DNA of 64,000 nucleotides. Source: Hymenobacter ginkgonis. GTDB taxonomy: Bacteria; Bacteroidota; Bacteroidia; Cytophagales; Hymenobacteraceae. The notes beneath the pieces were generated by a model. It worked only from the letters and a program-made list of their open reading frames with translations. It did no database searches and was not told the DNA's origin. Positions 1 through 64,000 of this stretch are shown here, in pieces (position 1 is the stretch's first letter; each line of letters starts with the position of its first letter). The position numbers and the translations under genes were made by a program. The stretch covers positions 248,001 to 312,000 of the forward strand of contig NZ_WQKZ01000002.1 of NCBI RefSeq assembly GCF_009755225.1. The letters are read 5' to 3'.

Positions 1-1
1 G

Positions 2-1618
2 TACCAGTTGTATCCGCGCAGTTTTCAGGACAGCAACGGCGATGGGGTAGGCGACTTACGCGGTATTATTTCGCGGCTCGACTACCTCCAAAGCCTGGGG
101 GTAGGCACTGTGTGGCTGAACCCCATCTACGGCTCGCCCAACGATGACAACGGCTACGACATTTCGGACTACCGCGCCATCATGAAGGATTTTGGCACCA
201 TGGCCGACTTCGACGCGCTGCTCAAGGGCCTGCACCAGCGCGGCATTAAGCTAGTGATGGACTTGGTGGTGAACCACAGCAGCGACGAACACGCCTGGTT
301 TAAGTCGGCCCGCAGCTCGCGTACTAGCCCCTACCGCGATTACTACTACTGGTGGCCCGCCGACAAGGGCACGCCCCCGGCCCGCTACAGCACTTTCGAT
401 GTCAAGAAAAATGCCTGGCAGTACGACGCTGCTACCAAGAGCTACTACCTGCACTATTTCTCCAAGAAGCAGCCCGACCTGAACTGGAACAACCCCAAGC
501 TGCGCCAGGAAGTGTACAGCCTCATGCGGTTTTGGGCCGACAAAGGCATCGACGGCTTCCGCATGGATGCCTTCCAGTTTGTGGCCAAAGACCCCACCTT
601 CCCGCCCATGCCGGGGCTAAACGAGCACAACTACACCAACGCCTACAACCACGGCCCGCACCTGCACGACTACCTCCAGGAGATGAACCGCGAGGTGCTG
701 AGCAAGTACCACTTGATGACCGTGGCCGAGGGCGCGGGCCGCAACCCCGCCGAGGCCATGCTCTTTGTAGACCCCGCCCGTAAGGAGCTGAATATGACCT
801 ACCACTTCGAGGCGGTGGGGGTAGGCAGCGGCGCAGATACTTACCAACTCACGGCCCTGAAGCGCGTGTTTACACGATGGGACAGCGCCTTTGCCCACAA
901 GGGCTGGCAGTCGATTTACTTAGGCAGCCACGACCAGCCGCGCATCGTGAGCAAGTTCGGCGACGACCGCCCGGCGTTTCGGGCCGCGTCGGCGAAACTG
1001 CTCAACACCTTTATCCTGACCATGCGCGGCACGCCTTATTGCTACAACGGCGACGAGCTGGGCATGACCAATAGCAAGTTTGACAACATCGCCGACTACC
1101 GCGATGTGGCGGCCCGCAACGGCTACCAGCTCGTGCGCAGCCAGGGGGGTAGCATTCCGCAGTATATCAAATCCTTGCAGCGCTTCTCGCGCGACAATAG
1201 CCGCACGCCATTCCAGTGGGATGCCACGGCGAATGCGGGCTTTACCACCGGCACGCCCTGGCTGAAGGTAAACCCCAACTACCCAACCGTCAACGAAGCC
1301 GCCGAAGCCAAAGATTCGGCTTCAGTGCTCCACCACTTCCGCCGGGCCATAGCCGTGCGCAAGCAGCATAAAGCGTTAGTATACGGGCAGTACCAGCTAC
1401 TCGACGCCGCCAACCCACACATCTACGCTTACACCCGCACCCTAGGCGCCGCAAAAGCGCTGGTGGTGCTCAACTTCTCTTCCGCTCCGCAGAGCTGGCC
1501 CCTACCCCCTGGCTTACAGCCCGGCAGCCAGCCTTTGCTCAACAACTACCCTACGGTGCCTACCGGCCCGGCTTTGGCGCTGCAGCCCTGGCAGGCGGTG
1601 GTGCTCAGCCTGCGGTAG
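2..1618 (+). CDS. GH13 alpha-glucosidase / oligo-1,6-glucosidase, 5' partial
   Basis: Glycoside hydrolase family 13 enzyme that would hydrolyse alpha-linked gluco-oligosaccharides. The gene enters from before the window: the first complete codons read YQLYPRSFQDSNGDGVGD, the classic start of the catalytic barrel, so only the initiation region and any signal peptide are missing. Visible conserved regions are DLVVNHSS (region I), GFRMDAFQF with the nucleophile Asp at 566-568, VAEGAG with the probable acid/base Glu, and SHDQPR (region IV). The C-terminal beta domain ends at the stop. The layout resembles the MalL/oligo-1,6-glucosidase group. The residue after the nucleophile is Ala, where strict alpha-1,6 enzymes usually have Val, so alpha-1,4 activity is possible (inference). 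It precedes susC by about 160 bases and probably belongs to the same sugar-utilisation locus. Family is secure; exact substrate is not. Confidence 0.9.
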   Translation, partial: YQLYPRSFQDSNGDGVGDLRGIISRLDYLQSLGVGTVWLNPIYGSPNDDNGYDISDYRAIMKDFGTMADFDALLKGLHQRGIKLVMDLVVNHSSDEHAWFKSARSSRTSPYRDYYYWWPADKGTPPARYSTFDVKKNAWQYDAATKSYYLHYFSKKQPDLNWNNPKLRQEVYSLMRFWADKGIDGFRMDAFQFVAKDPTFPPMPGLNEHNYTNAYNHGPHLHDYLQEMNREVLSKYHLMTVAEGAGRNPAEAMLFVDPARKELNMTYHFEAVGVGSGADTYQLTALKRVFTRWDSAFAHKGWQSIYLGSHDQPRIVSKFGDDRPAFRAASAKLLNTFILTMRGTPYCYNGDELGMTNSKFDNIADYRDVAARNGYQLVRSQGGSIPQYIKSLQRFSRDNSRTPFQWDATANAGFTTGTPWLKVNPNYPTVNEAAEAKDSASVLHHFRRAIAVRKQHKALVYGQYQLLDAANPHIYAYTRTLGAAKALVVLNFSSAPQSWPLPPGLQPGSQPLLNNYPTVPTGPALALQPWQAVVLSLR

Positions 1619-1703
1619 CGCGGGGGGTAGGGCCTATGGCCTTCAGCAATTTTCACTCTTTTCCAGGTCCTCACTTAGCGCAGGTAGCTGCTGTAACTTT
1701 TTT

Positions 1704-1717
1704 CGAAATCGTTTGCG
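1704..1717. promoter_or_regulatory. Candidate LacI-family operator upstream of susC
   Basis: The quasi-palindrome CGAAATCGTTTGCG has a central CG flanked by AA and TT half-sites, the general form of LacI/GalR operators. It sits about 60 bases before the SusC start in the GH13-susC gap. Sugar loci in this phylum often carry LacI-type regulators (known), but no such regulator is in this window. Assignment is by motif form only. Confidence 0.4.
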
Positions 1718-1775
1718 ATAGCTGCTGCGGCGGCTAAGTGTTTTTAGAATTTCCCACTTTTCCTCCTTTTCACTC

Positions 1776-62939: not shown

Positions 62940-63476
62940 ATGTGCCAGGTCACCATTCCCAACTCATCAGACGACCGCAAGCTGTTTTCGGAAGAAATGC
63001 GGTTCATTTATGACAAGCACCTGAGCTTATTTAACATCCGCAGAGAACATGAATGGAAAGTATTTTTTGGGATGATAACGCTGCTTGGGCTTTCGACCGC
63101 TGCGCTACTCAATTACAGAATTCAGCTAACACCCCAGCAGAAGCACTTGTGGGCGCTAGGAATGACACTTCTATTCGTAGCTCACTTTTTTTACCAATCA
63201 GGTGTGCAGCACCGGAACAGAATTGACCGGCTAGTAATGGATGAGGTGAACCGACACCTTTGCGCTGCTATGAACCTAGATAAGAATTGCTTTATTAGAT
63301 TATCTACCGACGCAGGCGAGGAAAAGGATTTTGTGACGGATGGCGGCCGCCTTGACTTGCCGTGGTATAATATTCGGTACATCTGGGCATTTGCGCTACA
63401 AACCGTAACACTACTACTCATATGCGCTGTTTCTTACGTTATTGCCTCCGGCCATATAGTAGCGCTAAAGCCCTAA
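62940..63476 (+). CDS. Hypothetical three-helix membrane protein
   Basis: A 178-residue protein with three hydrophobic helices: VFFGMITLLGLSTAALLNY, HLWALGMTLLFVAHFFYQSG and IWAFALQTVTLLLICAVSYV. A soluble loop between helices 2 and 3 reads HRNRIDRLVMDEVNRHLCAA. The N-terminal 35 residues are polar (EEMRFIYDKHLSLFNIRREH). Lower GC and ordinary codon choice differ from the neighbours, suggesting transfer. I cannot assign a family. It ends before a terminator. Confidence 0.7.
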   Translation: MCQVTIPNSSDDRKLFSEEMRFIYDKHLSLFNIRREHEWKVFFGMITLLGLSTAALLNYRIQLTPQQKHLWALGMTLLFVAHFFYQSGVQHRNRIDRLVMDEVNRHLCAAMNLDKNCFIRLSTDAGEEKDFVTDGGRLDLPWYNIRYIWAFALQTVTLLLICAVSYVIASGHIVALKP

Positions 63477-63500
63477 GCAGGGGGTAAGACCCAGCACTAA

Positions 63501-63537
63501 AAAAGCGCCTGAAGCTACGAGAGCTTCAGGCGCTTTT
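63501..63537. terminator. Bidirectional terminator
   Basis: AAAAGCGCCTGAAGCT pairs perfectly with AGCTTCAGGCGCTTTT over a five-base loop. It lies between convergent genes and can serve both. Confidence 0.85.
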
Positions 63538-63559
63538 CTTTTAGCAACTATTCTAGTAC

Positions 63560-64000
63560 CTACATATGAATGGCCCGGTTCTCGGTGGCGGCGAGGCAGG
63601 CTTCTTTCATAGCCTCGGCATAGGTGGGGTGCGAGTGGCTCATGCGGGCCACGTCCTCGGCCGAGGCGCGGAACTCCATGGCGGTCACGGCTTCGGCGAT
63701 GAGGTCGGCGATGCGCGGCCCAATCATGTGCACGCCTAAGATTTCGTCGGTGGTTTTGTCGGCCAGCACTTTCACGAAACCGTCGGTGTCGCCACTGGCG
63801 CGGGCGCGGCCGCTGGCTTTGAAGGGGAAGCTGCCCACTTTGTAGGCCTTGCCTTGCTCCTTAAGCTGCTCTTCGGTGTAGCCTACCCCCGCCACTTCGG
63901 GCCAGGTGTACACCACGCCGGGGATGAGCAGGTAGTTGATGTGCGGCTTCTGGCCCACGATGGTTTCGGCCACGTACACGCCTTCTTCCTCGGCCTTGTG
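63560..64000 (-). CDS. lpdA: Dihydrolipoyl dehydrogenase, C-terminal part
   Basis: The last 146 residues of a flavoprotein disulfide reductase of the 2-oxoacid dehydrogenase complexes, which reoxidises dihydrolipoamide. The gene runs off the window edge, still in frame at 64000. GVVYTWPEVAGVGYTEEQLK starts the dimerisation domain, and the catalytic His-Glu pair is in MSHSHPTYAEAMKEACLAA. It is placed at the end of the window, convergent with the hypothetical membrane protein. Confidence 0.95.
   Translation of the reverse strand, partial: HKAEEEGVYVAETIVGQKPHINYLLIPGVVYTWPEVAGVGYTEEQLKEQGKAYKVGSFPFKASGRARASGDTDGFVKVLADKTTDEILGVHMIGPRIADLIAEAVTAMEFRASAEDVARMSHSHPTYAEAMKEACLAATENRAIHM

Follow-up and report, generated by a model that had tools for sequence, protein, structure and literature searches.

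What makes a single nine-letter word, GGGGGTAGG, recur throughout a stretch of the Hymenobacter ginkgonis genome? The stretch analysed here (the window: 64,000 nucleotides of contig NZ_WQKZ01000002.1, positions 248,001 to 312,000) holds 52 exact copies, 21 on the + strand and 31 on the - strand, against a mean of 0.84 and a maximum of 5 in 100 dinucleotide-preserving shuffles; GGGGTAGG occurs 61 times. An earlier note, made by eye from the letters alone, had put the number at some 55-65 including close forms, with about one expected by chance, and both estimates hold. The excess extends to the whole source genome (G000; 5.67 Mb in 37 contigs), which contains 3,123 copies, 1,699 on the + strand and 1,424 on the - strand, compared with 20 of the reversed control string. 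For finer counts we used a 464-kb sample, consisting of the window and two 200-kb stretches (400 kb), in which 276 copies stand against 7.7 expected from an order-3 Markov model. An order-5 model expects 65.5, but such a model already holds most of the word itself. Judged by composition, the word is hyper-abundant.

Coding demands do not produce this excess. The 283 genes called in the 464-kb sample contain 176 copies, compared with a mean of 10.6 and a maximum of 16 in 30 synonymous-codon shuffles, and codon use is therefore no explanation; the test against Markov and codon-shuffled models that the earlier note had proposed came out in favour of enrichment. The same 176 genic copies (55 sense, 121 antisense) are accompanied by 97 between genes and 3 at gene boundaries, as expected from the note's report of both orientations and both kinds of location, and the density is 0.48 per kb in genes and 0.99 per kb between them. 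The note's remark that genic copies avoid an in-frame TAG is true of all 55 sense copies, though trivially so. One could still regard the word as a by-product of codon or peptide use, or of slippage in G runs, with no cause at the DNA level: copies encode Pro-Thr-Pro, Leu-Pro-Pro and Gly-Val-Gly, the length of the G run varies, and alignment gaps are enriched at copies. The shuffle and the second element described below refute this account, the word is denser between genes, and relatives lack it; we give it next to no credence.

The word instead leaves its mark on proteins. In G000, the word or part of it encodes 58 of the 91 Pro-Thr-Pro tripeptides, 58 of the 86 Gly-Val-Gly and 50 of the 83 Leu-Pro-Pro. 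Three genomes rich in the word (carriers, below) have 51 Pro-Thr-Pro in 55,030 residues, 43 of them word-coded, and eight other genomes have 42 in 150,017 residues, 4 of them word-coded. This excess in carriers means that GGGGGTAGG adds residues, beyond choosing among codons. Compared with seven relatives without this dialect, residue identity is 0.70 at word codons and 0.77 in the flanks, with all residues kept in 32 of 103 comparisons. A DNA word is thus strong enough to put tripeptides into proteins.

The consensus comprises at least five G, then TA, then at least two G, followed by G or C in 244 of 276 copies. One-letter variants are few at the centre (1-7 each at letters 5-7 in the 464 kb) and commoner at the ends, where A at letter 1 and C at letter 9 each occur 68 times. 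A mirror family with AT for TA is almost devoid of long G runs. G-quadruplexes formed by adjacent copies were considered and rejected, as only 10 neighbouring pairs among the 276 copies lie within 60 bp of each other, in mixed orientations.

Reading copies along their G strand revealed a partner element. Of the 276 copies, 138 have a T exactly 19 bases ahead of the T in their TA (z 12.4), and it is preceded by G and C, such that GCT occupies this place in 48 of 275 copies against 7.2 expected; the flank table of the word accordingly has C at -15 and T at -14. The T accompanies 57 of the 97 copies between genes and 78 of the 175 within them, and in the window 28 of 52, 13 of these as GCT. Whether the G run is 5, 6, 7 or 8 long, the peak lies at 19, so the distance is set from the TA. 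Near-words retain the T (48% for GGGGTAGG, 36% for GGGTAGG), against 18% for GGTAGG with a short G run and 20% for GGGGG followed by A, C or G; the loose control [ACT]GGTAG gave only the three-base rhythm of genes. The same T at 19 recurs in two other carriers, G033 (z 8.2) and G115 (z 7.8). We conclude that the DNA site has two parts, the main one being GGGGGTAGG. A partner at a fixed 19 bases suggests that some protein machine reads the site, and it offers a sharp probe for that machine.

The earlier note had also invoked even spacing, and this part of its argument fails. The coefficient of variation of the gaps between copies, which would be 1 at random, is 1.35 for the window and 1.21 for the other two segments, the variance-to-mean ratio of counts per 5 kb is 1.4, and two long stretches of the window (1632-9950 and 38351-47389) hold no copy. 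Copies thus range from randomly spaced to clumped. Nor is there strong strand polarity, which the note had proposed to check: copy orientation matches the local GC skew in 157 of 276 cases.

These data bear on a polar signal for AddAB or FtsK. Chi sites and FtsK orienting polar sequences (KOPS) are short, G-rich, over-represented words; GGGTAGGG, which lies inside many copies, fits the Escherichia coli KOPS consensus GGGNAGGG, and AddB- or AddA-like proteins (PF12705) occur in 16 of 16 genomes. Unlike those signals, GGGGGTAGG lacks polarity, its orientation showing no bias with replication direction by the GC-skew count, and sister words in related species are palindromic. AddB was rejected as a co-varying reader as far as its C-terminal part (about 806 residues) goes, the N-terminal part not having been read: 1 of 858 columns sets four carriers apart from the rest, compared with 0 of 2,100 in control proteins. 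AddA identities trace yet another history. The polar recombination signal suggested by the earlier note is correspondingly weakened, and we consider it very improbable. As a separate observation, the AddA-like open frame has 660 residues in G005 (L279) and 577 in G118 (L283), compared with 1,186-1,339 in the others listed, reflecting either a broken gene or an assembly error.

To place the word among relatives, we counted it in 120 Hymenobacter genomes, G000 included; judged by its ornithine transaminase gene, G000 has its closest relatives in this genus. It exceeds 1,000 copies in 8, occurs 294-711 times in 6, and does not exceed 147 in the other 106, so the relatives that the earlier note had suggested consulting possess it in part only. 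In a sample of 395 genomes from the phylum, none of the 391 that remained after setting aside G000 and three congeners exceeded 80 copies. Some relatives have a word of their own. Labelling by eye from order-3 Markov tables of 8-80 kb from each of 67 genomes, and leaving out top words that looked like local repeats (e.g. in G004, G015, G063, G105 and G127), assigned a leading word to 29 genomes, five of them GGGGGTAGG carriers, and none to 38. Leading words include GGGGTAGG in four genomes and more weakly in two, GGGTAGGG in three, CCCTAGGG in G096, G032 and G020, GGCTAGCC in G118, G132 and G076, ACCTAG in G072 and G133, and CTAGGCC in G141; GGGGCCC, a weaker leading word in six genomes of one clade, was labelled but kept separate. 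Most of these dialect words have a CTA/GTA core in common, and CCCTAGGG and GGCTAGCC are palindromic.

Across the 120 genomes, CCCTAGGG occurs 3,302 times in G096, 916 in G032, 902 in G020, 177 in G072 and 128 in G133, and at most 58 times in the other 115; GGCTAGCC occurs 3,011, 2,170 and 2,079 times in three genomes and at most 322 times in 117. Codon shuffling again left large excesses (25 vs 0.9 in G096, 41 vs 2.9 in G118, 52 vs 2.2 in G033, 29 vs 1.6 in G115), compared with 3 vs 0.8 in the non-carrier G005. The spaced T also recurs in some dialects: at 18-20 with CCCTAGGG in G096, at 18-19 in pooled GGGGTAGG genomes (G081, G108, G117, G121) and at 21 in pooled GGGTAGG genomes (G025, G070, G097). 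Stray peaks, such as that at -27 in G032, may be chance.

Similar words exist beyond the genus. Three Pontibacter loci (L030, L031, L057) with AACTATA or AAGTATA gave 41 vs 3.9, 38 vs 5.6 and 27 vs 4.0 against codon shuffles, and a Solirubrum locus (L028) with ACCTAGG gave 19 vs 1.5. The strongest word elsewhere in the Bacteroidota loci compared scored 18, against 36-66 in these four. In L057 the word is accompanied by an A at +20, equivalent to a T on the opposite strand. In fuller form the words read AACTATA(G), AAGTATA(A) and ACCTAGG(G), and two of the Pontibacter loci have about 3 copies per kb.

A DNA-level rather than a coding cause is supported by these results together: both orientations, genic and intergenic copies, the codon-shuffle excess, conservation between carriers (below), the second element and the words of sister species. 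Of the earlier note's interpretation, the DNA-level cause is retained on these grounds and the even spacing is not.

Sister species of this one genus, several of them named isolates, have different words or none, which allows gain, loss and switching to be set side by side and a gene for the reader to be looked for by co-variation. At matching places, relatives have mostly ordinary codons. One place reads GGGGGGGTAGGG in G000, G033 and G099, GGCGGCGTGGGC in G005, G019, G096, G092, G020, G076, G114, G073 and G110, and close forms of GGCGGCGTGGGC in G118, G032, G132 and G134; another reads GGGGGTAGGG in G033 and CCTAGGGG, its own dialect, in G096. Copies of G033 reappear at aligned places of other carriers (11/17 in G000, 12/17 in G115, 2/2 in G099) and almost never elsewhere (0/28 in G005, 0/27 in G019, 0/25 in G118, 0/15 in G096, 0/16 in G134, 0/12 in G032, 1/13 in G132), even though G005, G019 and G118 fall within the clade of G033. 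Carrier-to-carrier conservation exceeds that of 9-mers of the same GC content in most comparisons: 14/25 from G000 to G033 (control 26%) and 14/20 in the reverse direction, the two controls spanning 24-26%, and 13/16 from G115 to G033 and 12/16 from G108 to G117, both against 42%.

How copies arise can be read from alignments with relatives. Lengths agree on balance in 109 of 150 comparisons made for G033, in 100 of 118 for G000 and in 6 of 22 for G115, and several kinds of base change underlie the copies; the word arises mostly by base changes at near-matching places. Insertion as a mobile repeat was rejected because the +9 length class is empty. Non-carriers match the second-element T in 60 of 93 (G033), 30 of 60 (G000) and 1 of 8 (G115) comparisons, compared with 85%, 88% and 78% for other nearby Ts, whereas carriers match it at 86%, 80% and 79%, against 88%, 83% and 83% for other Ts. 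On this comparison, the T is gained along with the word.

The carriers do not form one clade. In a protein tree of 20 genomes (up to five genes, one of them found in only 7 of 67 genomes; 1,538 columns kept), G000 and G027 fall outside a clade that unites three other carriers (G033, G115, G099), two non-carriers (G005, G019) and the GGCTAGCC group. The approximately unbiased (AU) test rejected the five carriers as one clade (p 0.0018), and the three CCCTAGGG genomes as one clade were likewise rejected (p 0.012). Places common to G000 and G033 therefore reflect either parallel gain or an old gain erased in several lineages. One-mismatch remnants at ungapped G033 places are few in non-carriers (2/19 in G005, 1/19 in G019, 1/16 in G118), which favours parallel gain at predisposed places, and we infer that lineages probably gained their copies in parallel.

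Gains made place by place at predisposed near-matches are what a repair drive would yield, in which a sequence-specific mismatch-repair or recombination enzyme settles changes in favour of the site it recognises and so converts near-matches singly and without benefit, as proposed for the cyanobacterial highly iterated palindrome HIP1. Residue changes forced on proteins and patternless spacing also suit such an enzyme. A spaced second element written together with the word fits a simple enzyme less well, as do the several kinds of base change and the lower density on resident plasmid-like contigs described next. We regard repair drive as rather unlikely; the two-part structure in particular favours uptake over it.

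Extra contigs in three genomes are probably plasmids, and in G115 and G118 the resident word is sparser on them. G115 has 5 copies in 20 kb of a 200-kb contig (C1) and 2 on a 6.4-kb contig (C2); these 7 in 26 kb compare with 56 in 80 kb. A 306-kb contig of G117 has none in 20 kb. On a 141-kb contig of G118 (C2; L252, L285-L287), 80 kb contain GGCTAGCC 6 times and GGGGGTAGG 5 times, compared with 55 and 1 on the chromosome; this contig may come from a host of another dialect. Low density of the resident word on such contigs counts in favour of a machine that handles the DNA of kin.

If methylation were behind the word, a resident methyltransferase would recognise all of it or just its core, and its copy number would be raised by methyl-directed mismatch repair, an explanation published for HIP1 and its alternates (PMC4390886). 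No PF01555 methyltransferase was found in G027 and G033, and none of PF00145 in G000 and G027, all three genomes being rich in GGGGGTAGG; among these two families no methyltransferase is common to carriers, PF02384, PF07669 and PF02086 not having been searched. The methylation role entertained in the earlier note is weakened to this extent, and we hold it improbable. C5 methyltransferases are, as a side observation, patchy in the genus, occurring in 8 of 24 genomes (loci L198-L209).

A nucleoid or chromosome-structuring protein that binds the two-part sites, under weak selection at each place and with changed specificity between species, has more in its favour. A pair of contacts some two helical turns from each other, outer letters that tolerate change to a graded extent, conservation over control in most carrier pairs and an intergenic density double the genic one all suit such a protein. 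It would not lead us to expect random to clumped spacing with gaps of more than 8 kb in the window, nor the many sister species without such a word, and our analysis turned up no candidate protein. We consider it a doubtful though live explanation.

The explanation that we tentatively prefer is that the two-part site accumulates by molecular drive, through a machine that takes up or recombines the DNA of kin. GGGGGTAGG is one dialect among the highly repeated words that mark particular lineages of Hymenobacter and its relatives. A single reader machine with a CTA/GTA core would touch both parts of the site, drift in its specificity would have produced the dialects, and, by analogy with Haemophilus and Neisseria, the machine would serve to take up or recombine kin DNA, favouring DNA that bears the site. 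Thousands of copies in both orientations, with dialects, are features of uptake signals that are all found here. A more specific version, possible but to be held loosely, is a pilus-independent password system in the Hymenobacter family and Pontibacter, built on a two-part CTA/GTA site with a T about 19 bases away and on one machine whose specificity for the flanks changes fast. Each species would overwrite its chromosome with a word of its own, at the expense of protein sequence if need be, and plasmids would betray former hosts.

Several results weigh against this preferred explanation. PF00437, the type IV pilus ATPase, gave no match above the cut-off in 16 of 16 genomes (G132 had a single weak and partial one), so that DNA, if taken up at all, would have to enter by another route; the earlier note's suggestion of uptake thus keeps the two-part structure on its side and loses the known pilus. 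The ComEC family, found in 23 of 24 genomes, is present in non-carriers as in carriers and is therefore uninformative. (Its open frame has 581 residues in G000, at C32:288273-289082, and 589 in G005, at C1:209106-209906, compared with 746-832 in the other 21.) Uptake signals reportedly have a more even spacing than the random to clumped one of GGGGGTAGG. Nothing above an absolute z of 3.7 appeared at distances 18-21 in G118, G132, G032, G072 with G133, G141, Solirubrum, or Pontibacter L030 with L031. GGGGCCC lacks the CTA/GTA core and has a weaker excess (163 vs 48).

The comparative data add to this list. Conservation was not over control from G000 to G115 (1/4 vs 30%), nor for GCTAGC from G118 to G076 (9/21) and to G132 (13/25), both against 56%, for GGCTAGCC from G118 to G132 (2/5 vs 49%), or for CCCTAGG from G032 to G020 (5/14 vs 46%). 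Gaps lie within 6 bp of 12-46% of copies when G033 is aligned with seven non-carriers, compared with 6-9% at random places, which speaks against an origin by substitution alone. Finally, a single old gain with full loss in several lineages is the alternative to parallel gain.

Among known systems, the uptake signal sequence (USS) of Pasteurellaceae combines a core word with AT-rich elements phased by helical turns. The present site likewise has a short core, found on both strands roughly once in every one or two kb, and a separate T element at a constant spacing of some two helical turns. It differs in that the T element is single and upstream on the G strand, the core is unrelated, no pilus ATPase was found in the genomes searched and competence is not known; the T lies 19 from the TA in carriers, at 18-21 in some dialects and nowhere in several. 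Dialects of the DNA uptake sequences (DUS) of Neisseriaceae follow phylogeny (PMC3630211). They resemble our words in their thousands of copies, several dialects per family and a common three-letter core; unlike them, the site here is two-part, the carriers of one dialect are not one clade, and the pilus ATPase was not found. In core, spaced element, dialects and density, then, the words resemble uptake signals.

In switching between dialects they resemble the HIP sequences of cyanobacteria. HIP1 is GCGATCGC, with some 500-2,500 copies per million bases, and the origin of its abundance is still debated (PMC4390886). The likeness consists in about 550 copies per million bases in G000, in alternates that stand in for an absent main word and in one-letter deviations concentrated at the ends. 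Unlike HIP1, GGGGGTAGG is not its own reverse complement, has a second element at 19, belongs to Bacteroidota and has sister words centred on CTAG or GTAG rather than GATC; no matching methyltransferase was found in the two families PF01555 and PF00145. Because the word is not palindromic and no type IV pilus ATPase was found in the genomes searched, we assign it to neither HIP sequences nor uptake signals. Our literature search found no paper on such words in Hymenobacter. To our knowledge, uptake signals are known in two families only, and the password system, if real, would be the first dialect system of the uptake-signal type outside Pasteurellaceae and Neisseriaceae.

Within the window, thirteen copies have GCT as second element (its coordinates in brackets). 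On the + strand these are 12857-12865 (12841-12843), 22719-22727 (22703-22705), 24649-24657 (24633-24635), 25881-25889 (25865-25867), 34834-34842 (34818-34820) and 50098-50106 (50082-50084); on the - strand they are 11366-11374 (11388-11390), 28211-28219 (28233-28235), 30730-30738 (30752-30754), 32701-32709 (32723-32725), 37693-37701 (37715-37717), 52989-52997 (53011-53013) and 61682-61690 (61704-61706). The copy at 12857-12865 spans the TAG at 12862-12864, the stop codon of hemB (open reading frame (ORF) 11872-12864, ALAD/HemB), as the earlier note had seen.

Copies also present at the matching place in G033 lie at 97-105 (+), 1501-1509 (-), 21619-21627 (+, in a DsbD-like gene), 48499-48507 (-) and 60555-60563 (-). 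The same is true of two copies on the - strand of an amino-acid permease gene, 14458-14466, where relatives have GGCGGCGTGGGC or close forms, and 14941-14949, where G096 has CCTAGGGG; of 53600-53608 (-), where three other relatives have GGCGGCGTGGGC; and of 63882-63890 (-), where three others have GCCGGCGTAGGC or GCCGGCGTGGGC. At 53013-53021 (-) G033 also has the word, in a gapped alignment, and at 53231-53239 (-) it has GGGGGTAGC. An aldehyde dehydrogenase gene contains one copy common to G033 (54961-54969, -) and one at which four relatives have GGCGGCGTCGGC (54230-54238, -).

Five relatives lack the word at 29464-29472 and 30136-30144, both on the - strand of one GH3-family gene, and at 11013-11021 (-), which shares the ornithine transaminase ORF (9930-11186) with the copy at 9951-9959 (-); four lack it at 48765-48773 (+). 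An overlapping tandem pair lies at 60183-60191 and 60190-60198 (both -). The other copies are at 817-825, 1623-1631, 17403-17411, 19930-19938, 22953-22961, 25431-25439, 26161-26169, 31351-31359, 38342-38350, 47390-47398, 59788-59796 and 60104-60112 on the + strand, and at 11453-11461, 26769-26777, 36404-36412, 50666-50674, 52257-52265, 53892-53900 and 59461-59469 on the - strand.

Other word counts departed from expectation in the same material. The 10-mers GAAGCATCTC, AGATGCTTCG and GTCATGCTGA occur 21-23 times against about 1 expected (L210-L229 and the window); words like them lead in L130 and L157 and perhaps represent a dispersed intergenic repeat. In G004 (L136), runs of nine C occur 36 times in 20 kb against 0.3 expected. 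GATC is nearly extinct in G000 (24 vs 1,717 expected, both strands of the 464 kb) and in its relatives G118, G096, G032, G073, G110 and G028, with 0 against 284-339 expected in the 80-kb samples of G118, G096 and G032; in 80 kb of the 141-kb G118 contig, 11 are still present.

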